From assembly GCF_040110915.1 (NCBI RefSeq), contig NZ_CP157793.1, positions 186,001-250,000 on the forward strand: a stretch of DNA of 64,000 bases. Direction: 5' to 3'. The notes below the pieces were generated by a model that saw only the letters and a list, made by a program, of their open reading frames with translations, was not told where the DNA came from and made no database searches. The position numbers and the translations under genes are program-made. Positions 38,666 to 63,444 of the stretch are shown here, piece by piece. The first letter of the stretch is position 1, and the number at the start of each line of letters is the position of its first letter. This stretch comes from Stappia sp. (GTDB lineage Bacteria; Pseudomonadota; Alphaproteobacteria; Rhizobiales; Stappiaceae).

Positions 38666-38681
38666 TCGTCCTCTTGGACGA
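38666..38681. promoter_or_regulatory. Palindromic operator, perfect copy (site A)
   Basis: TCGTCC-TCTT-GGACGA, perfect 6-bp arms, 93 bases upstream of the thiolase gene at 38775. The same 16-bp palindrome recurs at 44611 and 63429 with different spacer bases, and imperfectly elsewhere in the catabolic cluster. Confidence 0.7.
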
Positions 38682-38774
38682 TGCGCCTCGTGCCGGTCCG
38701 CCTGAAAAAGGCCGGGACCGTCCCGGGCGTGCGCAGTGCCGCGCCCGGCAAGAGAATCCGGGCAGGGAGTTGTC

Positions 38775-39980
38775 ATGCGCGAAGCAGTCATCGTCTCGGT
38801 GGCGAGAACGCCGATCGCGAAAGCCTACAAGGGAGCCTTCAACGACACGGAGGCGCCGGCGCTGTCGGGCCACGCCGCGCGCGCCGCGCTGGAGCGCGCG
38901 GGTGTCGAAGGCGGCGAGGTCGACGACGTCGTCATGGGATGCTCGGCGCAACAGGGCACGCAGGGCTACAACATCGGGCGTCTGACCGCCGCCGCCGCCG
39001 GCCTTCCGGACACCGTGCCGGGAATGACGGTCGACCGCATGTGCTCGTCCGGACTGATGGCGCTGGCCATCGGGGGGCGGCAAATCGTGCTCGACGGGAT
39101 GGAGACGGTGCTCGCCGGCGGGGTGGAATCGATCAGCCTCACCCAGAATGCCCACAAGAACACCCATCGCAACCGCTCCCGGGCGGTGACCGCGCGGTGG
39201 CCGCATATGTACATGCCCATGATCGAGACGGCCGAACTCGTCGCCGCCCGTCATGGCGTCGACCGCGACGCGCAGGATGCCTTCGCGCTGCAGAGCCAGC
39301 AGCGCACGGCCGCCGCGCAGGCCGCCGGCCGCTTCGACGCGGAACTCGCCCCCCTGCCGACGCGCAAGCTCGTGAAGGATCGCGAGACCGGCGAGACGCG
39401 TCATGAGGACGTGCGTCTGGAGCGGGACGAGGGCGCGCGGGCGGACACGACGCTGGAGCGCCTGACCGGTCTGGCGCCGGTCTATTCCAACGGCGAACTG
39501 GTCGAGGAGGGGCGTTTCGTGACGGCGGGCAACTCCTCCCAGCTGTCCGACGGCGCGGCGGCGCTGGTTCTGATGGAGGGGCGGCGGGCGGAGCGCCTGG
39601 GGCTTGCGCCGCTCGGCGCCCTGCGCGGGATCGCCGTGGCGGGCTGCGCGCCGGAGGAGATGGGCATCGGTCCCGTTCTCGCCGTGCCGAAGCTTATGGA
39701 CCGGCATGGCCTGACGGTGGACGACATCGATCTGTGGGAACTGAACGAGGCCTTCGCCAGCCAGGCGGTCCATTGCCGCGACCGCCTCGGTCTCGATCCG
39801 GAGAAGCTCAATGTGAACGGCGGCGCGATTGCGGTCGGCCACCCCTTCGGCATGACCGGCGCGCGTCTGTCGGGACATCTTCTGATCGAGGGGCGCCGGC
39901 GGGGGGCGCGGCGCGGCGTGGTGACCATGTGCATCGGCGGCGGCATGGGGGCGGCCGGCCTGTTCGAGATTTTTTGCTGA
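38775..39980 (+). CDS. Thiolase (acetyl-CoA acyltransferase)
   Basis: A 401-residue thiolase cleaving 3-oxoacyl-CoA with CoA. Nucleophile Cys in [13 protein letters not shown] (near residue 90), His in [16 protein letters not shown] (near 355), and second Cys in [10 protein letters not shown] (near 387). Start ATG 38775 follows GGCAGGGAG. It is the first gene of the right-hand catabolic cluster and has operator site A upstream. It is a different thiolase from the FadA6-like one at 49676. Its substrate is likely a side-chain or ring-derived acyl-CoA. Confidence 0.88.
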
Positions 39981-40083
39981 CGGCGGGCAGGCGCGGCGCG
40001 GGGCCGGTTCCGCTTCGCGCGTCACCGATGGTAGAAAACCTGCTGTATGTATCGAGGCGAAGGACCGCCGGGGAGAGACGGAA

Positions 40084-40824
40084 ATGGGGAACGGGGGCGA
40101 TGGCGCCGGCGAGCGCGGCGAGGCGCGTCAGCCGAAGGCGGAGCGGCGCGACACCAATCCGCGCAAGGAACTGGTGCGCGAACAGCTTCTCGACATCGCC
40201 GCGCGCATGTTCGACGAGAAGGGCTACGATCGCTGCAGCATGGCGGCCATCGCCAGCGAGGTCGGTCTCGGCCGCTCCGCGATCTACCATTATTTCGGAT
40301 CGAAGGACGAGATCCTGGCGGCGCTGATCGACACGGAGGCGCTGGAACCCTTGAGCCGGTTGCGGGAACTGGCCGACGACACGACGCACAGCCCGGCCGA
40401 ACGGCTGCGGGTGGCCATCGTCGACGGGGTGGTGCGGCGGCTGTCCAGCGGTGCGCGCTTCGTGCGCCTGGCGCGGCTGGAGGCGCAGATCCCCGACCAT
40501 CTGCTCGCCGACTACAACAGCTCGCGCCGGGCGATCTACGATTACTATGTCGATTGCATCGAGCAGGGCATCGCCGCCGGCGAATTCCGTCAGGTGGACA
40601 CCCATATCGCCGCCTTCGCGGTGATCGGCATGGCCAACTGGACGTCGCGCTGGTATCGGCCCGACGGCCGCCTGAGCGCCCAGGAGATCGGCGAGGCGAT
40701 GGCGGATCTCGCTCTGGCGGGCCTGTTGTCCAACGACCAGAACACGCGTCGGCTGGAAGAGGCGCGCGCCCGGGTGCGTGCGTTGAGCGACGATGTCGCC
40801 GTCCTGAGGCAGCTTCTGGGATAG
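40084..40824 (+). CDS. TetR-family regulator, possible KstR2-like repressor
   Basis: A 246-residue TetR regulator. After a 25-residue polar tail, HTH at about 30-75 (LLDIAARMFDEKGYDRCSMAAIASEVGLGRSAIYHYFGSKDEIL). The ligand domain ends with TSRWYRPDGRLSAQEIGE, resembling the end of mycobacterial KstR2 (RWYRPGGPLTAQQVG), which represses HIP catabolism genes and is released by HIP-CoA. It sits inside the cluster between a thiolase and the ABC importer. A C-terminal helical extension of about 25 residues is unusual. It is the best candidate to bind the TCGTCC-N4-GGACGA palindromes. Confidence 0.82.
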   Translation: MGNGGDGAGERGEARQPKAERRDTNPRKELVREQLLDIAARMFDEKGYDRCSMAAIASEVGLGRSAIYHYFGSKDEILAALIDTEALEPLSRLRELADDTTHSPAERLRVAIVDGVVRRLSSGARFVRLARLEAQIPDHLLADYNSSRRAIYDYYVDCIEQGIAAGEFRQVDTHIAAFAVIGMANWTSRWYRPDGRLSAQEIGEAMADLALAGLLSNDQNTRRLEEARARVRALSDDVAVLRQLLG

Positions 40825-40874
40825 CCACGGCCGCGCCGCTCGAGGCCGCGGGACGGGGCGCGCAAGCGGCTTCG

Positions 40875-40890
40875 TCGTCCGATTGCATGA
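40875..40890. promoter_or_regulatory. Operator, imperfect copy (site B)
   Basis: TCGTCC-GATT-GCATGA, 10 of 12 arm positions as in the perfect palindrome. A further half-site, TCGTCC at 40936-40941, lies 61 bases on. They are in the 343-base region before the ABC permease gene at 41168, which holds nothing else I can assign. Confidence 0.45.
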
Positions 40891-41167
40891 TGCCTGTCCC
40901 GCACTTTCCAAGCATGCTGTGACGATACGCGTTCGTCGTCCGACGGGTCCGACGGGCGTCGGGCGCCGGCCGTTCGCGCCGCTGTCGGGTTTTCAAAGCG
41001 GCCGAATCCCGGACGCGGAGAGGGGGGCGGACGGCAAGAGGAGGGCGGACGTCGGACGGCCGGACGTCGGGTGGACAAAAACGGGCCGGTATCTCGGGAA
41101 CGCAGACCGAAATGCTCGCGAAAAGAGCGCCGAAGGCCTTGAGTGCCGGGAGTTAAGGGGGAGGAAA

Positions 41168-42049
41168 ATGCTCAGTGAGATCGCCATCATCGTGGTGCGA
41201 GGCGTGGCCATCGGCGCGCTGTTCTCGATCATCGCGATGAGCTTCAACATCGTTCACAACGCCACGCGCATCCTGAATTTCGCGCAAGGCAACATCTTCA
41301 TCCTCGGGGGGTTCGCGGCCTATCTCCTGGCCAACAACGCAAGCTTTCCGATGTGGCTCGCGATGCTCGCGGTCACCAGCGTGGTGATCGCCGTTTTCGT
41401 GGCGATGCAGGGCTGGCTGACGCTGCTGCCGCTGCGCGGCAACACCACCGAGCAGGACAGCTGGATGATCTCGACCGTCTCGGTCTCGGTGATCATCGCG
41501 GCGATCCTGATGCTGATCTACGGGCCGTTCGCCTATTCCGTCGGCGGCGTAACGCCCGCGTTCGAGATCTTCGGCGTCAAGACGCCCGGCGCCTTTCTGC
41601 TGGCGATCGCCGTGATGATCGGCTGGTATCTCCTGCTGTCCTGGTTCCTGCGCCATTCCTTCACCGGACTGGCGATCAGCGCCCTGTCGCAGGACTTCGA
41701 CGCCGCCCGCGCGGCCGGGCTCAACGTGCGTCGACTGCAACTCCTCGCCTTCGGCATCAGCGGCATGATCGCCGGCTCCGCCGGCTTCATGGTGGCGCCG
41801 ATCATCTCCGTCAGCCCGGACGCCGGGCTGCGCTATGTGCTGAACGGCTTCATCGCCGCGGTCGTCGGCGGGATCGGCAACAACACCGGCGCCCTGATCG
41901 GCGGCCCGCTCGTCGGCGTGATGGCGATGCTGATGGCGTACAAGGTCGGCGGCGCCTATCAGGACCTCGCCTCGCTCATCGTGCTCGTCGTGATCCTGAT
42001 GTTCTGGCCGCAGGGCCTGTTTGGACGCGCGACCGCGCGCAGGGTGTAG
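41168..42049 (+). CDS. Branched-chain-type ABC permease LivH
   Basis: A 293-residue inner-membrane permease of the HAAT (LivH) family with about eight hydrophobic helices. Typical segments: FSIIAMSFNIVHNATRILNFAQGNIFILGG near the N-terminus and FMVAPIISVSPDAGLRYVLNGFIAAVVGGIGN near residue 220-245. Start ATG 41168 follows GGGGGAGGAAA. It pairs with the LivM-LivG fusion that begins 4 bases after its stop, and with LivF. The binding protein gene is 11 kb downstream at 55478. In this context the solute is more likely a steroid-derived or other carboxylate than an amino acid. Confidence 0.88.
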   Translation: MLSEIAIIVVRGVAIGALFSIIAMSFNIVHNATRILNFAQGNIFILGGFAAYLLANNASFPMWLAMLAVTSVVIAVFVAMQGWLTLLPLRGNTTEQDSWMISTVSVSVIIAAILMLIYGPFAYSVGGVTPAFEIFGVKTPGAFLLAIAVMIGWYLLLSWFLRHSFTGLAISALSQDFDAARAAGLNVRRLQLLAFGISGMIAGSAGFMVAPIISVSPDAGLRYVLNGFIAAVVGGIGNNTGALIGGPLVGVMAMLMAYKVGGAYQDLASLIVLVVILMFWPQGLFGRATARRV

Positions 42050-42053
42050 CACC

Positions 42054-43865
42054 ATGGCAAGCCAGAACGACAGTCTCGCCGAGGCCGCCGGGCCGCAGGT
42101 GTCCCTGCCCACCGCACGCGGGCGCTTCCGCTCCGACGGGCTTCAGCTTCGCCTCGGCATCCTGCTGATCCTGCTGACCGGGATCGGGCCGAGCCTTCTG
42201 GGCAATTCCTACTGGGAGCACACGTTTCAGCTGGTGAACATCCTGATCGCGGTCGCCGTGCTGCAGAACTTCCTGTTCGTCGACGCCGGGCAGAAGAGTT
42301 TCGGCCAGGGCGCGATCCTCGGTCTCGGCGCCTATGGGCTGGCGATCGCCAGCGGCATTCACGGGGCGCCGCTGGCGCTTGGCGTTGTGGCGGCGGTCGG
42401 CGCCGCCATGCTGGGCGGGCTGCTGTTCGCCTTGCCCGCGCTCAGGGTCCAGGGCTTCCACCTCGGTTTCGCGACCCTGAGCGCGGCAATCGTCTTTCCC
42501 CAGCTCCTGATCCAGTTCGACGGCGTCACCCGGGGCATCAACGGCATCAGCCTCTACATTCCGGCCCTGACGAAACCCCTGGTGTTCGGTCTGAGCGGGC
42601 TGACGCTGCTGGTGACGGCGGTGCCGATCGCCGCGCTTCTGCTGCACTACAGCATCCGCAGCGCGCGGCTGGGGCGGCGCATGCGTCTGGCGGCGGAAAG
42701 CGCAGAGGCGGCGCGTGCGCTCGGGGTGCGCCCCGGCGCCATGCGGGCGCTCGCCTTCATGATCGTCTCGGCCGGCACCGGCCTGTGCGGGGCGCTTTAT
42801 GTGCCCACCGTCGGCTTCATCAGCCCGCAAGCCTTCATCATCGAACTGTCCTTCACCCTGTTCTTCGTGGTGGTCGTCGGAGGGCGCGGGCAACTGCTCG
42901 GACCGATCGTCGGCATCTGGGTGATCTACATCGTGCCCAATGTGCTGCTGGTGCAGCTCGTCGAATACCGGCTGCTGATCTACGGGTTCCTGACGCTGGC
43001 GGTGGTGATCGCCTTTCCCGACGGCCTCGTGGGCACCGTCGAGATGTGGCGCCGCAAGCGCTTCCAGCGCGGCGGCGGCGAGCAGGGCTTCCGCCTCGCG
43101 CCCTTCTCCGAAACCCTGGAGACGGTCGCGCCGCGCCCGGCCCCGGCGGACGCGCCTCCCATTCTCGAGGTCCGGGGCGCGGTCAAGCGCTTCGGGCAGG
43201 TCGTGGCGCTCGACAGGGTCGATCTGGAGGTGCGCCCCGGCGAGGTGCATGGCCTGGTCGGGGCCAACGGCTCCGGCAAGACCAGTCTTTTGAACATCGT
43301 TTCCGGGTTCAGCCGGCTGGATGACGGGAGCTACAGCTTTCGTGGTCGCGACGTGACCCGGCTGAATGCCACCGGCGTCGCCCGGATGGGGCTCGGTCGA
43401 ACCTTCCAGACCCCGCGCATCTTCACCGACGTGTCGGTATGGGCCAACATGCAGCTTGGCCTCGATGCCCGGGCGACGCCGCTCGACCCGCAGATGGCCC
43501 GGCTCGCCGAGCGCTTTCGCGAGGCCTATGGCGAGGACAATCCGGCCCTGCTGGCGCATGGCCAGCGGCGTCTTCTGGAAGTGATCCGGGTGGTCTTCGC
43601 CGATCCGGCGCTGGTGTTGTTCGACGAACCGGCGGCGGGGCTCGCGCCCGCCGAGCGGGCCGAGTTCTCCCGCCTGCTGCGCCAGCTCAGCACGCGGCTC
43701 GGCATGGCGGTGATCCTGGTGGAGCACGATCTCGACCTGGTCTGGGACATCGCCGACCGCATCACCGTTCTGGAGACGGGCCGGGTCGTGGCTTCCGGGC
43801 CGCCGCAGGCGCTCGCCAAGGACCCGGCGGTTCAGCATCTCTTCGTCGGAGGCAGCCATGCTTGA
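42054..43865 (+). CDS. ABC permease-ATPase fusion (LivM-LivG)
   Basis: A 603-residue fusion. Residues 1-about 330 are a LivM-type permease (FVDAGQKSFGQGAILGLGAYGLA; GVRPGAMRALAFMIVSAGTGLCGALYVPTVGFISP). About 365-600 is a LivG-type ATPase: Walker A GANGSGKTS near 405, QTPRIF Q-loop, signature LLAHGQRRLLE (Ser of LSxGQ replaced by Ala), Walker B LVLFDEPAAGL and H-loop VEHDLDL. LivM-LivG fusions occur but are less common than separate genes. Start ATG 42054. The stop overlaps livF by 8 bases. Confidence 0.9.
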   Translation: MASQNDSLAEAAGPQVSLPTARGRFRSDGLQLRLGILLILLTGIGPSLLGNSYWEHTFQLVNILIAVAVLQNFLFVDAGQKSFGQGAILGLGAYGLAIASGIHGAPLALGVVAAVGAAMLGGLLFALPALRVQGFHLGFATLSAAIVFPQLLIQFDGVTRGINGISLYIPALTKPLVFGLSGLTLLVTAVPIAALLLHYSIRSARLGRRMRLAAESAEAARALGVRPGAMRALAFMIVSAGTGLCGALYVPTVGFISPQAFIIELSFTLFFVVVVGGRGQLLGPIVGIWVIYIVPNVLLVQLVEYRLLIYGFLTLAVVIAFPDGLVGTVEMWRRKRFQRGGGEQGFRLAPFSETLETVAPRPAPADAPPILEVRGAVKRFGQVVALDRVDLEVRPGEVHGLVGANGSGKTSLLNIVSGFSRLDDGSYSFRGRDVTRLNATGVARMGLGRTFQTPRIFTDVSVWANMQLGLDARATPLDPQMARLAERFREAYGEDNPALLAHGQRRLLEVIRVVFADPALVLFDEPAAGLAPAERAEFSRLLRQLSTRLGMAVILVEHDLDLVWDIADRITVLETGRVVASGPPQALAKDPAVQHLFVGGSHA

Positions 43866-44580
43866 CGTTCGCAACCTGGTCGCCGGCTACGGGGACATTC
43901 CGGTGCTGCGCGGCATCTCGCTCCGGGCCGAGCCCGGCGAGATCCTCTTGATCGGCGGCGAGAACGGAGCCGGGAAATCCACGCTGCTGCGCGCGATCGC
44001 CGGTTTCATCAAACCCTCGCAAGGCAGCGTGGAGCTGGACGGAAAGCCGATCACCGGCATGGCGCCGGAAACCGCGGCGCGCGCGGGCTTGCGGCTGGTT
44101 CTGGACGGGCACCGCGTCTTTCCCGAACTCACCGTCTACGACAACCTGCGCATGGGGGTGGCCGCCCGTCCCGACGACCGGGCCAATCTGGCGCACTCGC
44201 TGGAAGAGATCTACGAGGTCTTCCCGATCCTCAAGGAGCGCTCCCGGGCGCTGGCGCGCGATCTGTCCGGCGGCCAGCAGCAGATCCTGGCGCTCGGGCA
44301 GGCCTTCGTCGCCCGGCCGCGCGTGCTGTTGTGCGACGAGCCGTCGCTCGGGGTGGCGCAGGCGCTGTTGCCGCCGATCCTGGCGTTCCTGCGGCGCTGG
44401 GCGCAGAGCGGAACGGCGGTCGTCATCGTCGACCAGCACGTGAAGATCAGCCTTCCCTACGCGGACCGCGCGATGATCGTCCAGCGCGGCGAGGTTCTGC
44501 TGGAGTGCCCCGCCGGCGAGCTGGACCGCAAGCTTTCGAGCATGCATGCGGCGCGCCAGAGCGCCCATGCCGGACGCTGA
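43858..44580 (+). CDS. ABC transporter ATPase LivF
   Basis: A 240-residue ATPase of the LivF type: Walker A GGENGAGKST, Q-loop region RLVLDGHRVFPELTV, canonical signature LSGGQQQILALGQ, Walker B RVLLCDEPSLGV and H-loop VDQHVKISL. It begins inside the end of the LivM-LivG gene, so translation is coupled. A perfect copy of the 16-bp palindrome follows its stop and precedes the next catabolic unit. Confidence 0.9.
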   Translation: MLDVRNLVAGYGDIPVLRGISLRAEPGEILLIGGENGAGKSTLLRAIAGFIKPSQGSVELDGKPITGMAPETAARAGLRLVLDGHRVFPELTVYDNLRMGVAARPDDRANLAHSLEEIYEVFPILKERSRALARDLSGGQQQILALGQAFVARPRVLLCDEPSLGVAQALLPPILAFLRRWAQSGTAVVIVDQHVKISLPYADRAMIVQRGEVLLECPAGELDRKLSSMHAARQSAHAGR

Positions 44581-44610: not shown

Positions 44611-44626
44611 TCGTCCCATCGGACGA
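44611..44626. promoter_or_regulatory. Palindromic operator, perfect copy (site C)
   Basis: TCGTCC-CATC-GGACGA, perfect arms, 65 bases upstream of the crotonase-family gene at 44691. Confidence 0.7.
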
Positions 44627-44690
44627 TGAGGCGGGCGGGCGGGCGCGGTATCCCTGATGGCACCAGACAGCGAAGCCACAGGAGCGCGCC

Positions 44691-45575
44691 ATGCCGGATC
44701 GCGACAGCCCGCCGCCGCAGTATGAAACCGACCAGCCGGTCCTCTACCGGGTCGAGGGCGCGGTCGCCTGGATCACCATGAACAGGCCCGCCTACAACAA
44801 TGCCCAGAACGCACAGATGACCTATGCGCTCGACGACGCCTTCAGGCGGGCGGTCGACGACGACGCGGTGCGGGTGATCGTGCTGGGCGGCGAGGGCAAG
44901 CATTTTTCCGCCGGACACGACATCGGCACGCCGGGCCGCGACGTCGAGCGCAGCTTCGACCGGCGGCTCTTGCTGCCCGATCATGTCGGGCGGTCGGGCG
45001 CGGAGTTCCTCTATACGCGCGAACACGAGGTGTATCTCGGCATGTGCCGGCGGTGGCGCGACTGTCCGAAGCCGACCATCGCCATGGTGCAGGGCGCCTG
45101 CGTCGCCGGCGGACTGATGCTCGCCTGGGTGTGCGATCTGATCGTGGCGTCGCAGGACGCCTTCTTCCAGGATCCGGTGGTGCGGATGGGCATTCCCGGC
45201 GTGGAGTATTTCGCGCATGCGTTCGAGCTGCCGCCGCGCGTCGCCAAGGAATTCCTGCTGCTCGGCGAGCGGATGAGTGCCGCGCGGGCGGAAAGCTTCG
45301 GGATGGTCAACCGGGTGGTGGCGCGCGAGGCGCTGCGGGACGAGGTGGACGGGCTCGCCGCGAAGCTCGCCGAGCGACCGCCGCTCGGCACCTGGCTGAT
45401 CAAGCAGGCCGTGAACCATGTCGAGGATCTGCGCGGCAAGCGCACCGGCATGGATGCGGTCTACCACATGCATCACTTCGCCCATGCCCAGAACGAACTG
45501 GCGACCGGACACAGGCTGGCCGGGCTCGACGGCACCGCCATGGCGGCGGCGAACAAGGCGGAAAACGGAGGCTGA
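44691..45575 (+). CDS. Crotonase-fold protein lacking both catalytic glutamates
   Basis: A 294-residue member of the enoyl-CoA hydratase superfamily; start ATG 44691 follows GGAG. The oxyanion-hole element HFSAGHDIGT (about 71-80) and GACVAGG are kept. At the two positions that hold the acid/base Glu pair in classical enoyl-CoA hydratase there are Met143 (AGGLMLAWVCD) and Val163 (QDPVVRMGIPG). It therefore probably is not a simple hydratase; hydrolase, isomerase or thioester-shuffling activity is possible. It heads an operon with two acyl-CoA dehydrogenases and an SDR. Confidence 0.82.
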   Translation: MPDRDSPPPQYETDQPVLYRVEGAVAWITMNRPAYNNAQNAQMTYALDDAFRRAVDDDAVRVIVLGGEGKHFSAGHDIGTPGRDVERSFDRRLLLPDHVGRSGAEFLYTREHEVYLGMCRRWRDCPKPTIAMVQGACVAGGLMLAWVCDLIVASQDAFFQDPVVRMGIPGVEYFAHAFELPPRVAKEFLLLGERMSAARAESFGMVNRVVAREALRDEVDGLAAKLAERPPLGTWLIKQAVNHVEDLRGKRTGMDAVYHMHHFAHAQNELATGHRLAGLDGTAMAAANKAENGG

Positions 45576-45577
45576 CG

Positions 45578-46741
45578 GTGGACCTGCGCTATACGGACGA
45601 TCAACTGGCCTTTCGCGCGGAGGTGCGGGAGTGGATGGCGGCCAACGTGCCGGACGAACCGCTCCCCTCCTTCGACGGCACGCGGGCGGGCTTCGAGGCG
45701 CACAGGGAGTGGGAGGCCCGGCTCAACGCCGGCCGCTGGGGCATGGTCACCTGGCCGGAGGCCTATGGCGGCCGCGGGCTGGACCTGATCCGCTGGCTGA
45801 TCTTCGAGGAGGAATATTACGCCGCCGGCGCGCCGCAGCGGGTCAACCAGAACGGCATCTTCCTGCTCGGCCCCACCTTGATCGACTATGGCACGCAGGC
45901 GCAGAAGGCGCGCTTCCTGCCGCCGATGGCCAATGGCGAGGAAATCTGGGCGCAGGCCTGGTCCGAGCCGCAGGCCGGCTCCGATCTCGCCGCGGTGCGG
46001 GCGAAAGCGGTGCGCGACGGCGACAGCTATCTGCTGTCCGGACACAAGATCTGGTCGTCGCGGGCGGTGATGGCCGACTGGGCCTTCGGCCTGTTCCGCA
46101 CCGACCCCGCCAGCGAACGGCACAAGGGCCTGTCGCTGATCCTCTTCCCGCTCGACGCGGAGGGTGTCCGCCGTCAGGCGATTGCCCAGATCAACGGCGA
46201 GACCGGCTTCGCCGAACTCTTTCTCGACGAGGTGCGGGTTCCGGTGGAGAACCGGGTGGGGGCGGAAGGCGAGGGCTGGCGGATCTGCATGGCCACCGCC
46301 GGCTTCGAACGCGGATTGATGCTGAGAAGCCCGGCCCGCTTCCAGATGACGGCGCGGCGGCTGGTGGAGCTCTACGAGGCCAACCGCGAGACCTGCGGCC
46401 CGGCCCAGCGGGACGCGGTCGCGCAGGCCTGGATGGCCGCCGAGGCCTATGCGCTTTCGGTCTACGCCACCGCGTCGCGGCTGATCGCCGGCGGCGGCAT
46501 CGGCGCCGAGGCCAGCCTGAACAAGATCTTCTGGTCGGAGATGGACATCGCGATGCACGAGACCGCGCTGGCGATCCTGGGCGCGCGGGCGGAGCTGTTG
46601 CCCACCGCGCCGGCGGCCGGCGACGTCGGGCGCTGGCTCGACGGCTACCTCTTTTCGCTGGCCGGGCCGATCTACGCCGGCACCAATGACATTCAGCGCA
46701 ACATCATCGCCGAACGGCTGCTTGGGTTGCCGCGCGCATAG
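45578..46741 (+). CDS. Acyl-CoA dehydrogenase, catalytic-type subunit
   Basis: A 387-residue acyl-CoA dehydrogenase starting at GTG 45578 just after GGAGG, 3 bases beyond the previous stop. FAD/substrate loop AWSEPQAGSDLAAV. The C-terminal motif is IYAGTNDIQRNIIAERLLG, where the Glu of the usual YEGT is Ala; the base is more likely the Glu in AGFERGLML (near 243), as in steroid-type dehydrogenases. It is followed by a second, degenerate dehydrogenase gene, an arrangement typical of heteromeric alpha2-beta2 enzymes for CoA-activated steroid side chains or rings. Confidence 0.88.
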   Translation: MDLRYTDDQLAFRAEVREWMAANVPDEPLPSFDGTRAGFEAHREWEARLNAGRWGMVTWPEAYGGRGLDLIRWLIFEEEYYAAGAPQRVNQNGIFLLGPTLIDYGTQAQKARFLPPMANGEEIWAQAWSEPQAGSDLAAVRAKAVRDGDSYLLSGHKIWSSRAVMADWAFGLFRTDPASERHKGLSLILFPLDAEGVRRQAIAQINGETGFAELFLDEVRVPVENRVGAEGEGWRICMATAGFERGLMLRSPARFQMTARRLVELYEANRETCGPAQRDAVAQAWMAAEAYALSVYATASRLIAGGGIGAEASLNKIFWSEMDIAMHETALAILGARAELLPTAPAAGDVGRWLDGYLFSLAGPIYAGTNDIQRNIIAERLLGLPRA

Positions 46742-46753
46742 GAGGGACGCTCC

Positions 46754-47860
46754 ATGAACTTCGCCTTCAGCGAGGAACAGACGATGATGGCCGACGTGGT
46801 GCGCGACGCGCTGCTGCGCGAATGCGGATCGGCGGCGCTTCGCAGCCGGATCGGCGCCGTCTGCAGTTTCGATCAGGATCGTTGGCGCAAGCTTCTCGCG
46901 CTTGGCGTGGCCGGCGTGCTGGTTCGCGAAGAGGCCGGCGGCCTGGGGCTTGGCGGCCCGGATTTCGTCCAGATCGCGGAGGCCTGCGGCTACGCCTGCC
47001 TGCCCGAGCCGCTCGTCGACCACGCCGGCGTCGTGCTGCCGCTCCTGAGTGCGTGCGAGGGCACGGCCGCCGGCGAGGCGCTGGCGCGCGGCCTGGAGGA
47101 CGGCGCGTTCCTCGCGCTGGCGCATCCGCAGACGCCCTGGGTGGTCGCGGCCAATGCGGCGCAGGCGGTGGTCCTGCCGGGGCCCGACGGCCTGCGTCTG
47201 GTGCCGGGCGCGGACACCGTCCGGGTTCAGCAACCCGGCATCGACCCCTTGCGCCAGCTCTTCACGGTGAGCGCGCCGCCAGAGGCCGGCGTGCGGATCG
47301 CCGGGCCGCAGGCGAGCCGCACGCTGCTGGCCCGGGCCGCCGAACGCGGCGCGGTGTTCACGGCGGCAGAGCTCGTCGGCCTCGCCCAGGCGAGCGTCGA
47401 CCTTGCCGTCGCCTATGCGAAGGAACGACACCAGTTCGGCCGGCCGATCGGGGCCAATCAGGCGATCAAGCACCATCTCGCGAGCGCGCAGGTGAAGATC
47501 GCCTTCGCTCGCCCGGTGGTGCATGCGGCCGCCGCGCTCGTTCCCCCGGAACCGGGCGCCCCGCCGGAGGACATGGAAGCGCGGGCGCGCATCTCCCATG
47601 CGCTGCTGGCGGCGGGCGAGGCGGCCGAACTGGCCACCCGCACCGCGCTGCAGGTGCATGGGGCGATGGGCTATTCGTGGGAGGTCGACGTGCACCTCTA
47701 TCTGAAGCGCGCGCTGTCGCTCACCGGGCGCTGGGGCGGGCCGGAGTATCACCGCCAGCGGGTTGCCGAACGGGTGCTCTCCGCCCCGCTCGGGCCCGAC
47801 CGGCTGTTCCCGCAGCCGGTCCGGGAGACGGACACGACGCCAATGAAAAGGACGGCATGA
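46754..47860 (+). CDS. Acyl-CoA dehydrogenase, partner-type subunit
   Basis: A 368-residue acyl-CoA dehydrogenase-fold protein, 12 bases after the preceding one. N-terminal helical domain (SEEQTMMADVVRDALL), middle beta domain poorly conserved, C-terminal helices with ERHQFGRPIGANQAIKHHLA and QVHGAMGYSWEVDVHLYLKRA. The catalytic Glu motif (YEGT or FERG) is missing at both known places. This fits the non-catalytic FAD-completing subunit of a heteromeric enzyme with the gene product of 45578-46741. The stop overlaps the next SDR gene (ATGA). Confidence 0.85.
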   Translation: MNFAFSEEQTMMADVVRDALLRECGSAALRSRIGAVCSFDQDRWRKLLALGVAGVLVREEAGGLGLGGPDFVQIAEACGYACLPEPLVDHAGVVLPLLSACEGTAAGEALARGLEDGAFLALAHPQTPWVVAANAAQAVVLPGPDGLRLVPGADTVRVQQPGIDPLRQLFTVSAPPEAGVRIAGPQASRTLLARAAERGAVFTAAELVGLAQASVDLAVAYAKERHQFGRPIGANQAIKHHLASAQVKIAFARPVVHAAAALVPPEPGAPPEDMEARARISHALLAAGEAAELATRTALQVHGAMGYSWEVDVHLYLKRALSLTGRWGGPEYHRQRVAERVLSAPLGPDRLFPQPVRETDTTPMKRTA

Positions 47861-50827: not shown

Positions 50828-50892
50828 GGTTCGGACCTCTTCACAGAACGCGCCAGGGGCCGGCACCCTAGGCAAGGAGTGGACGCGGACAA

Positions 50893-50945
50893 TCACCCGA
50901 ATAGACGAGCCGGAGGGCTGCCGGACCGCTCACCCAAACAGACGA
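50893..50945. promoter_or_regulatory. Two imperfect operators in a divergent promoter (sites E1, E2)
   Basis: TCACCC-GAAT-AGACGA (50893-50908) and TCACCC-AAAC-AGACGA (50930-50945) share identical arms and the same 4-base spacing as the perfect TCGTCC-N4-GGACGA sites, matching 9 of 12 arm positions. One lies 66 bases before the FadA6-like gene, the other 59 bases before the divergent gene at 51004. Their identical deviations suggest duplication. Confidence 0.5.
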
Positions 50946-52020: not shown

Positions 52021-52092
52021 CGGGCACGGCCCCGAGGCCGCGCGGACAGACGATGCGACTGCCGTCGTCGCGACCGGGCGTCCCCGTCTTGC

Positions 52093-55386: not shown

Positions 55387-55390
55387 CGGA

Positions 55391-56832: not shown

Positions 56833-56848
56833 TCCTGCATATGGACGA
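56833..56848. promoter_or_regulatory. Operator, weak copy (site F)
   Basis: TCCTGC-ATAT-GGACGA: one perfect half-site GGACGA followed by TG as in sites A, C and D, the other half matching 4 of 6. It is 61 bases before the fused acyl-CoA dehydrogenase gene and just after a terminator, where a new promoter is expected. Confidence 0.35.
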
Positions 56849-56908
56849 TGCGGCACGGCGTCCGGCGTGGCTGATGGACGGTGGAACAAGGCAGATCCGG
56901 GAAGACCC

Positions 56909-59278
56909 ATGGACACGCTATCGAGCGATGAACACACGATGATCCGAGATGCGGTGGCGCGCTTTCTGGAGCGCTCCGGCGGGCTGGAGCCGGCGGCCCG
57001 GGTCTCGGACGGCGGCGAGGCGGGCGCCGTGTGGCGGGGGCTGGCCGCGGAGTTGCAGGTCACCGCCGTCGGCCTGCCCGACGCATGCGGCGGCCTGGGT
57101 CCCGACATGCGCGCGCTGGTCGCGGTCGCGCGGGAACTGGGCAGGGTGCTGACGCCGGTTCCTTACGTGAGCACGGTGGCGGTCGCCGGGCAGATCCTGG
57201 CGGCGGCGACGCCGGGCGCGGGCCGCGATTCGTGGCTGTCGCGGATCGCGGAGGGACGCCTGCGCGCCGTGGTCCCGCAGGGCGGCACGCGCGCCGGCGA
57301 TTGCTGGGACACGTCCCCCTTTCACGCCGAGCGCGCCGGCGAGACCTATGTGCTGGCGGGCCGGGGCGGTCCGTTCGCCGATCTGATGGAGGCGGATCTG
57401 GTGCTGGTCCCGGCGCTCTGCGCGGGCGAACCGCTGCTCTTCGCGCTCGACGCCGAGGCGCTGGCGGACCGCCGCGAGGCCTGCGCGCCCATGGACGCGA
57501 CGCAGCCGACGGGCCGGCTGCGCCTGGACGGCCTGCGCCTCACCGCCAGTGCCGTTCTGGACGCAGGCGCCGGTTTCCGGCGCCGGTGCCGGGAGGCGAA
57601 CGACCGGGCGCGGCTCGCCCGCGCGGCCGAGATGAGCGGCGCGGCGCGCGGCGCCTTCACGCTGACACGCGACTATATCGCCGAGCGTCGCCAGTTCGGC
57701 CGCACCATTGCCTCCTATCAGGCGATCAAGCATCGGATGGCGGATCTCTTCGTCCGGTTGAACCGGGTGGATGCGCTGATCGACGGCGCGGCGCTGGCGT
57801 TCGACCGTCTCGACGGCGGAGCCGGCACGGGCGACGGGGATGCGGCGGCGGTCGCGGGAGCCGAGGCCCGCGTCGCCCAGGCGATGGCCTGCGAGGCCCT
57901 GTTCGCCGCAAGTGCCGAGGCAATCCAGCTTCACGGCGGCGTCGGCATGACCTGGGAGTATGCGCCGCATCTGTTCTTCAAGCGCGCCACCGCCATGCGG
58001 GCCCTGTGCGGTCCCCCGGAGGCTGCATTCCGGGCGTGCGGCGGGGATCTGATCGACCGGCGGCTTTCCGCGCTTCCGCTCGGCGGGGCCGAGGGCGGCG
58101 GCGAGGCCGCGCTGCGCAAGGCGGTGGCCATCTGGATGGCGGACAACCTCACCGGCGATTTCGCGCCTCTGCGCGGGCGCGGCGGAGCCGGCGACGGCGA
58201 TGCCCTCCCGGACTTGCGAAAGGCCTGGGAGCGGCGTCTGGCGGCGGGCGGCTGGACCTGTCTGGGCGTGCCGAAGGCGCTCGGCGGGCGCGGCATGTCG
58301 GTGCGCGATCAGGTGATCTTCAACGAGGAATATGCCCGGGCGGGCGGCCCGGGGCGTCTGGGGCACATCGGAGAGGGGCTGCTGGCGCCGACACTTGCCG
58401 CCTTCGGGACGCAGGACCAGAAGGCGCGCTTCCTGCCCGGGATCCTGCAGGGCACTGTCTTCTGGGCGCAGGGCTATTCGGAGCCGGGGGCCGGGTCGGA
58501 TCTTGCGAGCCTGCGCACCCGGGCCCGCCGCGATCCTGCGTCCGGGGACTGGATCGTGGACGGACAGAAGACCTGGACCTCGCTCGCGCATCTTTCCGAC
58601 TGGATCTTCGTGCTGGCCCGGGCCGAGGAAGGATCGCGCGGCCGCGACGGCCTGATCCTGCTGCTGATGCCCCTCGACCAGCCGGGGATCGACATCCGGC
58701 CGATCCGGCAGATCAACGGCGGCCGCGAGTTCAACGAGGTCTTCTTCGACGCCGCCGTGGCGCGCAAGGAAGACGCGGTGGGGGCGCCGGGCGAGGGCTG
58801 GTCCATCGCCATGGCGTTGCTCGGCTTCGAGCGCGGCATCTCGACCCTGGGTCAGCAAATGGGCTTCGCGCGCGAACTGGAGGCGATCGTCGCGCTGGCG
58901 CGCCGGGTGGCCGAGCCCATGCAGCATGCCGAGGCGCTGGGGCGCGCCTGGGCCGGATTGCGGGCGATGCGCCACGGCGCCTTGCAGATCCTCGGCGCGG
59001 CCGAGCGCGGCGAGGCGGGGGCCGAGGCCCTTGGCTACAAATACGACTGGTCGAACTGGCATCGCGGGCTTGGCGAACTGGCCATGGACGTTCTGGGGCC
59101 GGAGGCGGCCGCGCACGCGACAGAGCCCGAGATCGCCCGCCTGCAGCAGATGTATCTGTTCTCCAGAGCCGAGACGATCTACGGCGGCACCAACGAGATC
59201 CAGTTGAATATCATTGCGGAACAGGGCCTTGGCATGCCGCGCGAGCCGCGTGGACAGGCCCGGGGCGCGCCGCGATGA
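56909..59278 (+). CDS. Fused double acyl-CoA dehydrogenase
   Basis: A 789-residue protein made of two acyl-CoA dehydrogenase units. Residues 1-about 385 lack a catalytic Glu motif but keep ERRQFGRTIASYQAIKHRMA and QLHGGVGMTWEYAPHLFFKRA (partner type). About 395-789 is catalytic type with YSEPGAGSDLASL, a Glu in LGFERGIST, and IYGGTNEIQLNIIAEQGLG. This equals the two separate genes at 46754 and 45578 joined in one chain, in partner-then-catalytic order, and parallels alpha2-beta2 steroid acyl-CoA dehydrogenases. ATG 56909 follows GGGAAGA. Probably acts on HIP-CoA-derived or later ring intermediates. Confidence 0.87.
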   Translation: MDTLSSDEHTMIRDAVARFLERSGGLEPAARVSDGGEAGAVWRGLAAELQVTAVGLPDACGGLGPDMRALVAVARELGRVLTPVPYVSTVAVAGQILAAATPGAGRDSWLSRIAEGRLRAVVPQGGTRAGDCWDTSPFHAERAGETYVLAGRGGPFADLMEADLVLVPALCAGEPLLFALDAEALADRREACAPMDATQPTGRLRLDGLRLTASAVLDAGAGFRRRCREANDRARLARAAEMSGAARGAFTLTRDYIAERRQFGRTIASYQAIKHRMADLFVRLNRVDALIDGAALAFDRLDGGAGTGDGDAAAVAGAEARVAQAMACEALFAASAEAIQLHGGVGMTWEYAPHLFFKRATAMRALCGPPEAAFRACGGDLIDRRLSALPLGGAEGGGEAALRKAVAIWMADNLTGDFAPLRGRGGAGDGDALPDLRKAWERRLAAGGWTCLGVPKALGGRGMSVRDQVIFNEEYARAGGPGRLGHIGEGLLAPTLAAFGTQDQKARFLPGILQGTVFWAQGYSEPGAGSDLASLRTRARRDPASGDWIVDGQKTWTSLAHLSDWIFVLARAEEGSRGRDGLILLLMPLDQPGIDIRPIRQINGGREFNEVFFDAAVARKEDAVGAPGEGWSIAMALLGFERGISTLGQQMGFARELEAIVALARRVAEPMQHAEALGRAWAGLRAMRHGALQILGAAERGEAGAEALGYKYDWSNWHRGLGELAMDVLGPEAAAHATEPEIARLQQMYLFSRAETIYGGTNEIQLNIIAEQGLGMPREPRGQARGAPR

Positions 59279-59389
59279 CGGGGTGCCACGGCGCGGGCGG
59301 AGGAGCGACGGAGCACCGGGGGTGGGGCTCGGGGCGGCGCGGCATGGCTCATGACACATGACGAAACGAGATCGCAGGAAGGGAGCGAA

Positions 59390-60148
59390 ATGACGGGGGA
59401 TTTCAGGGGAAAAGTGGTTGCCGTCACCGGGGCGGCGCATGGCATCGGCCGGGCGATCGCGCTCGGGTTCGCGGCCGAACAGTCGGATCTGGCCTTGCTC
59501 GACCGCGACGGCGAGGCCCTGATGGCGACGGCGGAGGAGGCGCGGGCGCGCGGCGCGCGGGTCATGGTGATCGAGGGCGATCTGCTGGACCGGGCGCATG
59601 TCGCCGCCGGCTTCGCGCGGATCGAGACGGAGCTCGGGCCGGTGCACACGCTGGTCAACAATCTCGGCCAGACGGCGCGGGAACGCTACTCCGAGTTCTA
59701 TCTGGCGGAAGGCGACACGCTGGATTTCGTGATCGATATCTCGCTCGGCGCCACGCTGCATTGCTCGCGCCAGGTGGTGCCGGGGATGCGGGCGCGCGGA
59801 GCGGGGCGGATCATCTCGATATCGTCGGACTCCGCCCTCAACGGCGATATCGGAACCGTCGACTATGCGGCGGCCAAGTCCGGGGTGCTCGGCTTCACCC
59901 GCGCGCTCGCCCGCGAACTGGGGCCGCACAAGGTGACGGTCAACGCGATCTGCCCCGGTCCCACCAACACGCGCGCGATGCAGCGCATCCCCAAGGACGC
60001 CTATGAGCGCGCCCGCGACGCGATCCCCCTGGGCGAACTCTGCGAGCCGGAGGACATCGCCAACGCGGCGGTGTTTCTGGCCAGCGACAAGGCCCGCTGC
60101 ATCACCGGCCAGACGCTCGTCGTGAACGGGGGGCGCGTCTTCAACTGA
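59390..60148 (+). CDS. Short-chain dehydrogenase/reductase
   Basis: A 252-residue SDR: VTGAAHGIGRAIALGF, NNLG in place of NNAG, Ser in SISSDSAL, Tyr-x3-Lys in YAAAKSG. ATG 59390 follows AGGAAGGGAG. The C-terminus ITGQTLVVNGGRVFN is typical of the 3-oxoacyl reductase type. It belongs to the co-directional run 56909-64000. Substrate presumably a hydroxyacyl-CoA of the pathway. Confidence 0.87.
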   Translation: MTGDFRGKVVAVTGAAHGIGRAIALGFAAEQSDLALLDRDGEALMATAEEARARGARVMVIEGDLLDRAHVAAGFARIETELGPVHTLVNNLGQTARERYSEFYLAEGDTLDFVIDISLGATLHCSRQVVPGMRARGAGRIISISSDSALNGDIGTVDYAAAKSGVLGFTRALARELGPHKVTVNAICPGPTNTRAMQRIPKDAYERARDAIPLGELCEPEDIANAAVFLASDKARCITGQTLVVNGGRVFN

Positions 60149-60229
60149 GGGCGTGCGAACTGAGGGCGGGCGGTCCGGCGATGCGCTGCCGACACATGAA
60201 GACACCGGGGGAGACGGGGACATGAGGCG

Positions 60230-61342
60230 ATGGAGATGATCGGGCAAGGGCTGGAAACACGCCTCACGCGGGCGCTCGGGTGCCGCTATCCGGTGGTTCA
60301 AACGGCGATGGGATGGGTGGCCGACCCGAACCTCGTGGCGGCGACGACCAATGCCGGCGGGTTCGGCTTTCTGGCCGCCGCCTCGATCCCGCCGGGGGAA
60401 ATCGACGCCGCGATCGCCGCCGTCAAGGCGGCCACGGACGGTCCGTTCGGGGTCAACTTCCACATGTTCCAGCCCAATGCGGAGGAAGTGATCGAGGCGA
60501 TCCTGCGGCACCGGGTGCGCGCGGTGAGCTACGGGCGCGGCCCGGACGCGGCGACCATCGCCCGGTTCCGCGATGCCGGGATCGAGTGCATGCCGACCGT
60601 CGGTGCGGTGAAACACGCCGTGCGGGCGGTTGAACTGGGCGCCAGCATCATCACCGTGCAGGGCGGGGAAGGGGGCGGGCATACCGGATCGGTGCCGACC
60701 TCGCTGCTTCTGCCGCAGGTGCTCGATGCCGTCGACGTGCCGGTGGTCGCCGCCGGCGGCTTCTACGACGGGCGGGGGCTGGCCGCCGCGCTCGCCTGGG
60801 GCGCGGACGGCATCGCCATGGGCACCCGCTTTCTCCTGACCCGGGAAAGCCCGGTGCATCCGGAAACGCTCGCCCGCTACCTCAAGACCGCCGATCCGGC
60901 GGCGATCCGGGTGTCGAAGGCGGTCGACGGTCTGCCGCAGCGCTTTATCGACAACGAGGAACTGCGCCGCATGGAAGGGATGCGCGCCCCGGCGCGCTTC
61001 GTCGCCAGCCTGCGTCATGCCCTGTCCTGGGGGCGCGCGCAGGGGATGGGGCATGCCGACATGCTGCGGCTGGCGCTGCGCGCCTTCCGGGCCGGCGACG
61101 CGGGCTTCGCCGCCACCGTGATGGCCCCGAACCTGCCGCGCCTGGTGGAACAGGGTCTCGTCGCCGGCAACACCCGGGGCGGGCTGCTGCCCTCCGGGCA
61201 GGTCGCGGCGCTGATCGGCGAGCTGCAAAGCTGCGAGGCGCTGATCGCCGGGATTGTCACGCAGGCGATGCAACGGCTGGCCGCCTTGCGGCGGATGGAT
61301 CCCGGCCCCTGCGACGCGCCGGAACGGGGAGCGATGGCATGA
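60230..61342 (+). CDS. ipdC: IpdC-like flavin-dependent reductase (nitronate monooxygenase family)
   Basis: A 370-residue FMN protein of the nitronate monooxygenase fold. PVVQTAMGWVADPNLVAATTNAGGFGFLA near the N-terminus, QGGEGGGHTGSVPTSLLLP for FMN phosphate binding, and AGGFYDGRGLAAALAWGADGIAMGTRFLLT. These stretches closely resemble mycobacterial IpdC, which introduces a ring double bond in HIP-derived CoA esters. ATG 60230. The stop overlaps the EchA20-like gene (ATGA), as expected for a pathway operon. Confidence 0.87.
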   Translation: MEMIGQGLETRLTRALGCRYPVVQTAMGWVADPNLVAATTNAGGFGFLAAASIPPGEIDAAIAAVKAATDGPFGVNFHMFQPNAEEVIEAILRHRVRAVSYGRGPDAATIARFRDAGIECMPTVGAVKHAVRAVELGASIITVQGGEGGGHTGSVPTSLLLPQVLDAVDVPVVAAGGFYDGRGLAAALAWGADGIAMGTRFLLTRESPVHPETLARYLKTADPAAIRVSKAVDGLPQRFIDNEELRRMEGMRAPARFVASLRHALSWGRAQGMGHADMLRLALRAFRAGDAGFAATVMAPNLPRLVEQGLVAGNTRGGLLPSGQVAALIGELQSCEALIAGIVTQAMQRLAALRRMDPGPCDAPERGAMA

Positions 61343-62109
61343 GCACGCCCTTTGCCGTGGAGGTCGCCGACCATATCGGCGAAATCGTTTTGAACCGACC
61401 GCCGGTCAATGCCTTCGACAGCGCCGGCTGGGCCGCGCTGGCGCGAGCGGTCGACGCGCTGAACGCCGATCCCCGGGTGCGGGTGCTTCTGATCCGCGCG
61501 GAGGGGCGCGGGTTCTGCGCCGGCGTCGACATCAAGGAATTGCAGCGCCATCCGGAGCGGATCGTCGAGGTCAACCGGGGCAATTACGACACGTTCCGCG
61601 CCATCCACCGGGGGCGGGTGCCGGCGATCGCCGCCGCCCATGGCTATGTGCTCGGCGGCGGGATCGGCATCTGCGGCGCGGCGGATATCGTGCTTGCGTC
61701 GGAGTGCGCCAGCTTTGGCGTGCCGGAGGTGGACCGCGGGGCGCTGGGCGGCGGTGCGCATCTGCGGCGCCTGTTTCCGCTGCAGAAGGTGCGGCGGATG
61801 TATTTCACCGGCGAGCCGGTCGACGCGCGCGAGGCGTATCGCCTGGGCGGCATCGAGGCGGTTCTGCCCCGGGACGAGCTTGCCGGCGCCGCGCGGGCGC
61901 TGGCGGAGAAGATCGCCGCCAAGAGCCCGACGATGATCGCGCTGGCCAAGGAGGCCCTCAACGGGGTGGAGGCGACCGATCTCGAGGCGCACTACCGCTG
62001 GGAGCAGGGCTTCACCGCGCAGGCCTATCTGATGGCCGATTCCCAGGCGGCCCGCGATGCCTTCGTCGCCGAGGGCCGTCCCGCCGATTTCTCGAAGACC
62101 CGAGGATGA
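61339..62109 (+). CDS. echA20: EchA20-like ring-opening hydrolase
   Basis: A 256-residue crotonase-fold enzyme. RAEGRGFCAGVDIKELQR, VNRGNYDTFRAIHRG, HGYVLGGGIGICGAADIV and FGVPEVDRGALGGGAHL closely match EchA20, which hydrolyses ring D of the bicyclic HIEC-CoA. The first classical Glu position is Gly while the second (VPEV) is kept, as expected for this subfamily. Translation starts within the ipdC stop. The IpdF-like gene begins 6 bases after its end. Confidence 0.88.
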   Translation: MSTPFAVEVADHIGEIVLNRPPVNAFDSAGWAALARAVDALNADPRVRVLLIRAEGRGFCAGVDIKELQRHPERIVEVNRGNYDTFRAIHRGRVPAIAAAHGYVLGGGIGICGAADIVLASECASFGVPEVDRGALGGGAHLRRLFPLQKVRRMYFTGEPVDAREAYRLGGIEAVLPRDELAGAARALAEKIAAKSPTMIALAKEALNGVEATDLEAHYRWEQGFTAQAYLMADSQAARDAFVAEGRPADFSKTRG

Positions 62110-62115
62110 CCCGAC

Positions 62116-62931
62116 ATGGATCTTGATACTTCGCCTGACCGCGCCCCGGCCGTCGCCCCGCCGTATGTTCCCGGCCATGGACTGCTCGCGGGACGGTCGG
62201 TTCTGATCACCGCCGCCGCCGGACAGGGCATTGGCTTCGCCACCGCCCGCCGCGCGCTGGAAGAAGGCGCGCGGGCGCTGACCATCTCCGACATTCATCC
62301 GCGCCGCCTCGAGGAGGCGGTGGCGACCTTGCAGGAGATCGCGCCGCAGACCCCGGTGGCCGGCCAACTCGCCGATGTCACCGTCGAGGAGCAGGTGCAG
62401 GGCCTGATCGGCAAGGCCGACGCGGCGATGGAGGGCATCGACGTGCTCGTCAACAATGCCGGTCTGGGCGGCGTCAAACCGGTCGTGGAGATGACCGACG
62501 AGGACTGGCACCGGGTGCTCGACGTGACGCTGAACGGCACCTTCCGCATGACCCGCGCGGGATTGCGGGCGATGATGTCCCGCCGGCGCGGCACCATCGT
62601 CAACAACGCCTCGGTGCTCGGCTGGCGGGCGCAGAAGGGGCAGGCGCATTACGCCGCCGCCAAGGCGGGGGTGATGGCGCTGACGCGCTGCAGCGCGCTT
62701 GAAGCGGCGGAGCACGGCATTCGCGTCAACGCCGTCTCCCCCTCCATCGCCATGCATGACTTCCTCAAACGCTCGGCGCCCGAGGAGGTGCTGTCTCAGC
62801 TTGCGGCGCGCGAGGCCTTCGGCCGGGCCGCCGAGGTCTGGGAGGTGGCCAATGTGATCATGTTCCTGGCCAGCGACTATGCCTCCTACATGGTCGGCGA
62901 AGTGGTCTCCGTGTCCAGTCAGCACGCGTGA
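62116..62931 (+). CDS. ipdF: IpdF-like short-chain dehydrogenase
   Basis: A 271-residue SDR with long N-terminal lead. LITAAAGQGIGFATARRALEEGA (cofactor), NNAGLGGVKPVVEMTDEDWHRVLDV, NNASVLGWRAQKGQAHYAAAKAGVMALTRCSALEAAEHGIRVNAVSPSIA and FLASDYASYMVGEVVSVSSQH. These almost read as mycobacterial IpdF, which oxidises the 5-hydroxyl of the HIP-derived CoA ester. ATG 62116. Catalytic Ser, Tyr and Lys are in place. Confidence 0.9.
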   Translation: MDLDTSPDRAPAVAPPYVPGHGLLAGRSVLITAAAGQGIGFATARRALEEGARALTISDIHPRRLEEAVATLQEIAPQTPVAGQLADVTVEEQVQGLIGKADAAMEGIDVLVNNAGLGGVKPVVEMTDEDWHRVLDVTLNGTFRMTRAGLRAMMSRRRGTIVNNASVLGWRAQKGQAHYAAAKAGVMALTRCSALEAAEHGIRVNAVSPSIAMHDFLKRSAPEEVLSQLAAREAFGRAAEVWEVANVIMFLASDYASYMVGEVVSVSSQHA

Positions 62932-62944
62932 GGGGGAAGAGCGC

Positions 62945-63412
62945 ATGACATTCCGTTTTCGCTCGGCCGACGAGGCCATCGCCGCCATCGGCCGCACGCT
63001 CGGTCCCAGCGATTGGCTGACCATCGACCAGGAGCGCATCAACCTGTTCGCGCAGGCCACCGGGGATTTCCAGTGGCTGCACGTGGATCCGCAGCGCGCG
63101 GCCGAGGGGCCGTTCGGCGGGACCATCGCCCACGGGTTCCTGTCGCTGTCGCTGACCAACCTGTTTCTGCCGGATCTCTTCATGCCGGACAATCTGGACT
63201 GGGGCGTGAACTATGGTCTCGACCGGGTGCGCTTTCCCGCGCCGGTGCCCGTCGGGTCGCGCATCCGCGCCCGTGGCGAGTTGCTCGACGCCAGGCCCGT
63301 CGGCGAGGGCGTGGTCCAGACGAAGGTGCGCATGGAGATCGAGGTCGAGGGCGGGGACAAGCCGGCCTGCGTGGCCGACACCCTCCAGCGCTATGCGTTT
63401 CTCGCGACCTGA
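62945..63412 (+). CDS. MaoC-family (R)-enoyl-CoA hydratase
   Basis: A 155-residue single hot-dog domain protein. The hydratase-2 motif is clear: FAQATGDFQWLHVDPQRAAEGPFGGTIAHGFLSLSL, with Asp and His in place for catalysis. Acts as a dimer on trans-2-enoyl-CoA. ATG 62945 follows GAGGGGGAAGAG. Position just before the IpdA-like gene suggests a role in the late, ring-opened acyl-CoA steps. Confidence 0.9.
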   Translation: MTFRFRSADEAIAAIGRTLGPSDWLTIDQERINLFAQATGDFQWLHVDPQRAAEGPFGGTIAHGFLSLSLTNLFLPDLFMPDNLDWGVNYGLDRVRFPAPVPVGSRIRARGELLDARPVGEGVVQTKVRMEIEVEGGDKPACVADTLQRYAFLAT

Positions 63413-63428
63413 GCTTTCGCTGTCGGGG

Positions 63429-63444
63429 TCGTCCTGTTGGACGA
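63429..63444. promoter_or_regulatory. Palindromic operator, perfect copy (site D)
   Basis: TCGTCC-TGTT-GGACGA, perfect arms, 88 bases before the IpdA-like gene and 17 bases after the MaoC gene stop. It marks a new promoter for ipdA and what follows. Confidence 0.7.

Follow-up and report, generated by a model that had tools for sequence, protein, structure and literature searches.

A recurring box at the promoters of a Stappia steroid-catabolic cluster and its probable LuxR-type reader

Which protein reads the palindrome that recurs at the promoters of a catabolic gene cluster in Stappia sp.? The stretch in question, called the window below, comprises 64,000 nucleotides of contig NZ_CP157793.1 (positions 186,001 to 250,000; assembly GCF_040110915.1). 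Its cluster encodes the HIP (steroid C/D-ring) pathway, with acyl-CoA dehydrogenases, thiolases, an AMP ligase and a LIV-type importer. An earlier reading of this DNA, the original prediction, described the palindrome as TCGTCC-N4-GGACGA and proposed that it is a repressor operator read by the TetR-family protein encoded at 40084. From comparisons of sequences across genomes, we consider it likely that the palindrome is instead the box of a LuxR-type activator, with a GerE helix-turn-helix (HTH), encoded on the minus strand at 37429-38484.

Distribution and conservation of the box

The exact palindrome occurs at three places in the whole Stappia genome (4,672,223 bp), all within one 24.8-kb stretch. 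These are the perfect copies that had been placed at 38666, 44611 and 63429; each is indeed followed by TG, and all three lie between called genes. The imperfect copies also held up on inspection: those at 40875 and 56833 have two mismatches, those at 50893 and 50930 have three, and all are intergenic. The clustering is beyond what is expected by chance, with a rough P of 8e-5 for three random places falling within one such span. Raw counts of the motif are less informative. One-mismatch copies of the 16-bp palindrome are found at no fewer than 12 further places in the genome, and loose matches (three mismatches or fewer) number 143 in the window versus 62 in shuffles, mostly far from the cluster promoters. 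Because the same pattern read backwards is as frequent, likewise occurring at three places in the genome, the raw count is not unusual, and we rejected such counts as evidence.

Conservation is more telling. All seven sites are kept in four Stappia congeners, in intergenic DNA that has otherwise diverged on their flanks. Box B is unchanged at all 18 bases in five of five Stappia genomes, and box A is present in five, with C6 replaced by T in two of them. An eighth box, decayed in the host and in G080, is intact as TCACCCAAACAGACGATG in the other three congeners (G076, G085 and G086). Outside the genus, orthologs of the TetR protein (57-61% identity) lie in rearranged HIP clusters of five Rhizobiaceae metagenome-assembled genomes and one Aquibium genome. 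The expectation that the motif would accompany orthologous clusters was borne out there: TAGTCC-N4-GGACGATG, or a sequence close to it, precedes the thiolase gene and ipdC in all six and the acyl-CoA dehydrogenase operon in five of six. The Aquibium cluster has further boxes before crot1 and ipdA, whose Stappia orthologs stand behind boxes C and F.

These sites show that the actual unit is an asymmetric 18-mer, TMGTCC-N4-GGACGATG, and not the symmetric 16-mer. Across Stappia and Rhizobiaceae/Aquibium, the right half, GGACGATG, is nearly invariant and the left half is looser. Nor does the spacer vary freely, as had been supposed: position 9 is mostly T, and position 10 is C or T.

A weight-matrix scan of the genome, suggested as a check of the motif, gave a mixed result: a profile trained solely on the Rhizobiaceae sites (R1) placed the site at 44611 first, but with a modest E-value of 0.28. 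With a second profile (R2), the best matches were in the cluster, at a weak E-value of 0.08. The sole profile match outside the cluster (near G000:287392) falls inside long open reading frames and was set aside. Within the clusters, the motif is far commoner between genes than in coding DNA: in 11 clusters, when codon usage defined the genes and the profile came from the other family alone, matches of at least 9 bits occur at 3.3-12.6 per kb of intergenic DNA versus 0.08-0.32 per kb of genic DNA, where two strands at one place can give two matches. We saw no second palindrome, by eye, in the conserved stretches of four other intergenic regions. Altogether, these comparisons indicate that the box is a real, conserved regulatory site at the promoters of the catabolic cluster.

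Position of the box relative to promoter elements

To compare the DNA downstream of the box, we oriented 14 site classes (seven from Stappia, seven from Rhizobiaceae/Aquibium) with GGACGATG toward the presumed gene. For the r_div1 and r_div2 sites, which are near the ends of L037, L038 and L040-L042, the gene-facing orientation was assumed. The 8850-type Rhizobiaceae sites, which face no visible gene, were omitted from this comparison for that reason and were retained in the profile. One offset stood out: A at +22 is found in 11.5 of the 14 classes (class-weighted; p 1.3e-7, uncorrected for 55 offsets). At boxes C, F and D1 this A occupies the second position of a -10-like hexamer. Among 16 further sites (at least 15 bits, one orientation per place, some possibly coding and some orthologous to the earlier classes), 12 have A at +22 and 10 have T at +26.

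If the hexamer is a -10 element, the -35 hexamer would be ATGNNN, 17 bp before it. Only the ATG of a -35 element would remain, and the TG that follows the palindrome would then be explained as the TG of that element. A transcription start predicted at +33/34 would put the centre of the box at about -42, which is the usual location of class II activator boxes. Relative to these putative starts, then, a near-symmetric box centred near -42 accompanies a poor -35. A repressor site overlapping the -35 is a possible reading of the same arrangement. The spacing between the box and a -10-like element is fixed, and the claim that the TetR protein at 40084 reads a repressor operator here did not gain support.

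The same data bear on whether the palindrome acts as a leader RNA hairpin, with six-base arms and a four-base loop, rather than as a DNA site. The perfect copies could fold in this way, and the change of C6 to T in two species would retain a U-G pair. All six arm pairs, however, are present in only 4 of the 14 site classes; what is conserved is the sequence of one half and not the pairing; the box lies upstream of the -10-like element; and the window has no Rfam match. We regard a hairpin as extremely improbable.

Regulators that accompany the box

The LuxR-type protein was not mentioned in the original prediction, though its gene is in the cluster. Its PF00196 domain scores 26.3 bits against a cutoff of 23.5, and all of 10 homologs match the same model (E 0.01 or better). 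The helix predicted to read DNA, RNTARxHLRSIFxKxG, is invariant in the 10 homologs of alignment A6, which are 33-92% identical to the Stappia protein over their whole length. Foldseek searches with a low-confidence structure model gave VqmA and EL222 as the best matches of the GerE-HTH plus PAS/LOV kind (E below 0.001; TM-scores of 0.22-0.26 on the query); we take both to be proteins with a GerE-type HTH and a PAS/LOV domain. Pfam found PAS in one of the 10 LuxR homologs (E 0.008).

Among 385 Alphaproteobacteria genomes, eight encode a close IpdF. Six of these eight encode the LuxR-type protein (three of the six, G000, G332 and G412, belong to the profile), and one encodes the TetR ortholog. 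Of the remaining 377 genomes, two have a weak LuxR match (about 1e-47). The LuxR homolog is also present in all six Rhizobiaceae/Aquibium genomes. In G332 and G412, perfect boxes lie near luxR and before a luciferase-like monooxygenase gene, and no TetR ortholog is found at 1e-35. Two HIP clusters without either regulator (G236 and G138) have no box of 18 bits. A search for further HIP clusters in the order of G473 returned only G473 (1 of 397).

The predicted association of the box with LuxR was then put to nine plasmid records carrying a LuxR homolog, with a threshold of 18 bits. On the Caballeronia sp. SBC2 plasmid pSBC2-1, five boxes of 21-27 bits accompany a HIP cluster, the Vibrio alfacsensis plasmid (L123) has three boxes, each between annotated genes, Burkholderia arboris has two and Cupriavidus C39 has one; Rhizobium indicum has no match at or above the threshold. 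No TetR match was found in the betaproteobacterial or Vibrio plasmid stretches, the remainder of those genomes not having been searched. LuxR matches at 1e-50 or better turned up in 17 genomes when 339 Pseudomonadota were sampled. From the four best of these other than the host (G1164, G924, G1146 and G941), 12 stretches around 10 of the 11 listed LuxR copies contain 17 boxes of at least 18 bits, versus 0.3 in shuffles, with at least one box in 11 of the 12. TetR matches are remote (about 1e-17) in two of these genomes and absent from the other two. Boxes occur in two genomes without a TetR ortholog, in four with remote TetR matches at most and in TetR-less plasmid stretches, and a LuxR homolog is present in all; the proposal that the TetR protein is the reader is not supported on this point. 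Across genomes, the box tracks LuxR, with Cupriavidus N-1 and most sphingomonad loci as exceptions.

Several side observations concern these loci. The V. alfacsensis strain is fish-associated, and its box-bearing plasmid carries a large acyl-CoA catabolic cluster. On the Cupriavidus C39 plasmid (L117), a palindrome resembling the box comes after each of the two luxR homologs (17240, 25.1 bits; 22056, 16.7 bits). G1164 and G924 (L126, L127, L143, L144 and L147-L150) have four LuxR homologs each at 1e-50 or better, several with boxes nearby, which suggests duplicated sensors. In three genomes (G352, G255 and G128) the reading helix of LuxR is more diverged, and G352 has intergenic box candidates. 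A motif common to these three near fadA6 was discounted, as it falls inside the last part of the acyl-CoA dehydrogenase frame that comes before. Upstream of the HIP operon in G255 (L102), another inverted repeat, GGCGAA-N7-TTCGCC, stands together with a -10-like CCTAGG; this repeat is possibly the box of the diverged G255 LuxR.

Some results weigh against a LuxR-type reader. The structure model of the protein is poor (mean pLDDT 55). In the stretches examined, the HIP operons of G332 and G412 have no strong intergenic box. Among the plasmids, no match reaches 18 bits in Cupriavidus N-1, or in Sphingobium TYG72 and N. aromaticivorans pNL2, both of which have a more diverged LuxR. The single match in Sphingobium TYG65 (18.4 bits) is within an annotated gene. 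G255 and G128 have LuxR, yet their 18-bit matches are in coding DNA only. At least one of the 17 matches in the four best genomes (L151:18452, in stretches without gene calls) is taken as coding, because it is inside an ipdF match, and A at +22 is found in just 8 of these 17. Box E also lacks A at +22.

How does the TetR protein compare as a reader? It would act as a repressor on the palindrome, released by a CoA ester such as HIP-CoA, in the manner of the actinobacterial KstR2. Its gene is in the cluster and accompanies the box in five Stappia and six Rhizobiaceae/Aquibium clusters, its helix GLGRSA(I/V)YHYF is conserved, and palindromes fit TetR dimers. It has a TetR_C_24 domain, and KstR2 chains match it weakly (3.8e-18, fourth in rank, behind other TetR proteins). 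Against this stand the boxes for which no TetR ortholog was found, the asymmetry of the box and its fixed position relative to the -10. Within 1.5 kb of distant TetR homologs (L062-L068) no box is convincing, the best scoring 14.2 bits, and no box match precedes tetR itself. Overall, the TetR protein is an improbable reader.

The DNA before tetR (39980-40084) has conserved promoter-like elements of its own (GGTTCCGCTT ... CTAG in most species). In the congener G086, an insertion of ~270 bp with inverted ends (TCAGGACCTATTGATTTG) lies before tetR and is perhaps a small mobile element. Because the TetR ortholog is found in only 5 of 14 genomes of the host genus, the HIP cluster seems to be patchily distributed there.

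Both proteins could also share the box or neighbouring DNA, with LuxR activating and TetR repressing where both are present. All 11 TetR-bearing clusters carry LuxR too, and adjacent TetR and LuxR genes likewise occur in the Caenibius pdc cluster (PMC12239570; here and below, papers are cited for the portions accessible to us). The sequence requires no second protein, however, and the box is the same in loci that lack TetR. We consider this arrangement more doubtful still than a TetR reader.

In the mechanism that we favor, the LuxR-type protein would bind TMGTCC-N4-GGACGATG as a dimer, about 42 bp upstream of the transcription start and beside the residual -35 (ATG). Once bound, it would recruit RNA polymerase to the HIP operons and to the LIV-type importer. 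The trigger would be a steroid-derived signal, detected by the sensor part of the protein.

The cluster and known steroid regulators

The features of the cluster are collected in Table 1. DNA similarity to the congeners starts at about 37.4 kb and reaches the end of ipdB, at about 65.2 kb. The start codon of the importer is 275 bp beyond the end of box B. NF005925 and NF005880, which we take to be EchA20 and IpdF, are both matched above their cutoffs, and ipdA matches 6co6_A, a mycobacterial "probable CoA-transferase alpha subunit" with a solved structure (phmmer E 4.4e-80).

Table 1. Boxes and genes of the cluster, in window coordinates
Feature	Position	Strand	Remarks
LuxR-type (GerE) regulator	37429..38484	-	proposed reader of the box; PF00196 above cutoff
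Box A, TCGTCCTCTTGGACGATG	38666..38683	+	perfect; between divergent luxR and thiolase gene
Thiolase	38775..39980	+	first gene after box A
TetR-family regulator (TetR_N + TetR_C_24)	40084..40824	+	reader proposed in the original prediction
Box B, TCGTCCGATTGCATGATG	40875..40892	+	upstream of LIV-type importer
LIV-type ABC importer: permease, permease-ATPase fusion, ATPase	41168..44580	+	
Box C, TCGTCCCATCGGACGATG	44611..44628	+	perfect; before crotonase/acyl-CoA dehydrogenases; -10-like TATCCC at 44649-44654
Crotonase and two acyl-CoA dehydrogenases	44691..47860	+	
fadA6-like thiolase	49676..50827	-	NF005865 above cutoff; name fadA6 from the original prediction
Box D1, TCGTCTATTCGGGTGATT	50891..50908	-	faces fadA6; -10-like TAGGGT at 50865-50870
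Box D2, TCACCCAAACAGACGATG	50930..50947	+	faces SMP-30-like gene; -10-like AATCCT at 50968-50973
Decayed eighth box, CCGCGCGGACAGACGATG	52038..52055	+	before FAD oxidoreductase gene
Box E, TCCTGCATATGGACGATG	56833..56850	+	before fused acyl-CoA dehydrogenase
Fused acyl-CoA dehydrogenase, SDR, ipdC-like NMO, echA20-like (NF005925), ipdF-like (NF005880), MaoC-like	56909..63412	+	
Box F, TCGTCCTGTTGGACGATG	63429..63446	+	perfect; before ipdA; -10-like TAGCCT at 63467-63472
ipdA	63532..64000	+	continues beyond the window end, then ipdB

How the conserved HIP pathway is controlled is well established for actinobacteria (KstR2) and far less so for Proteobacteria, and steroid regulators have been called a "very short list" (PMC8700777). 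In our literature search, which left most subscription papers outside, we found no description of this box. With a defined box, regulons could be read from sequence, steroid genes still unassigned could be flagged, and promoter parts would become available for building steroid sensors. The present case is also a warning not to match an operator with whichever TetR gene lies closest.

TesR/TeiR of Comamonas testosteroni is a LuxR-type positive regulator (PMC13101464, PMC6895838, PMC6678751), and the box regulator is perhaps related to it. Compared by description only, both have their LuxR-type gene placed at the end of a steroid cluster, with C/D-ring genes among its members. TesR/TeiR differs in being reviewed as a polar membrane protein with kinase activity (PMC6678751), and the accessible portions of the three accounts give no DNA box for it. 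In the pdc cluster of Caenibius tardaugens, the authors suggest that the LuxR-type gene EGO55_13855 encodes an activator (PMC12239570). Its neighbour encodes a luciferase-like monooxygenase, an arrangement also seen in G332 and G412, but the accessible part of that paper gives no box, and the related N. aromaticivorans pNL2 locus has no 18-bit match. EdcR, also of C. tardaugens, resembles the Stappia system in that it regulates a steroid (estrogen) cluster and its operator is palindromic; it differs in being a TetR repressor whose operator, TnnCnnTACnAnTnGTAnnGnnA, overlaps the -10 box (PMC8700777).

The actinobacterial protein KstR2 controls the equivalent set of HIP genes (PMC3068626, PMC5380842), and Table 1 of PMC5380842, as accessible to us, has no kstR2 entry for its two proteobacteria. 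The Stappia cluster contains the HIP-catabolic genes of a KstR2 regulon and lacks AnCAAGnnCTTGnT, the sequence bound by KstR2 (PMC3068626), at its promoters. The original prediction was therefore right that the two boxes differ, since the conserved unit here is TMGTCC-N4-GGACGATG. We lean, by a little, toward the broader view that steroid ring catabolism is generally switched on, across Alpha-, Beta- and Gammaproteobacteria, by a GerE/LuxR protein with this unit at about -42. Such a pair would move with the clusters, on plasmids too, and its logic would be opposite to that of the KstR2 repressor. KstR2 is a TetR repressor with AnCAAGnnCTTGnT, whereas the Stappia box has a different sequence and an activator-like geometry, and tracks a LuxR-type protein.

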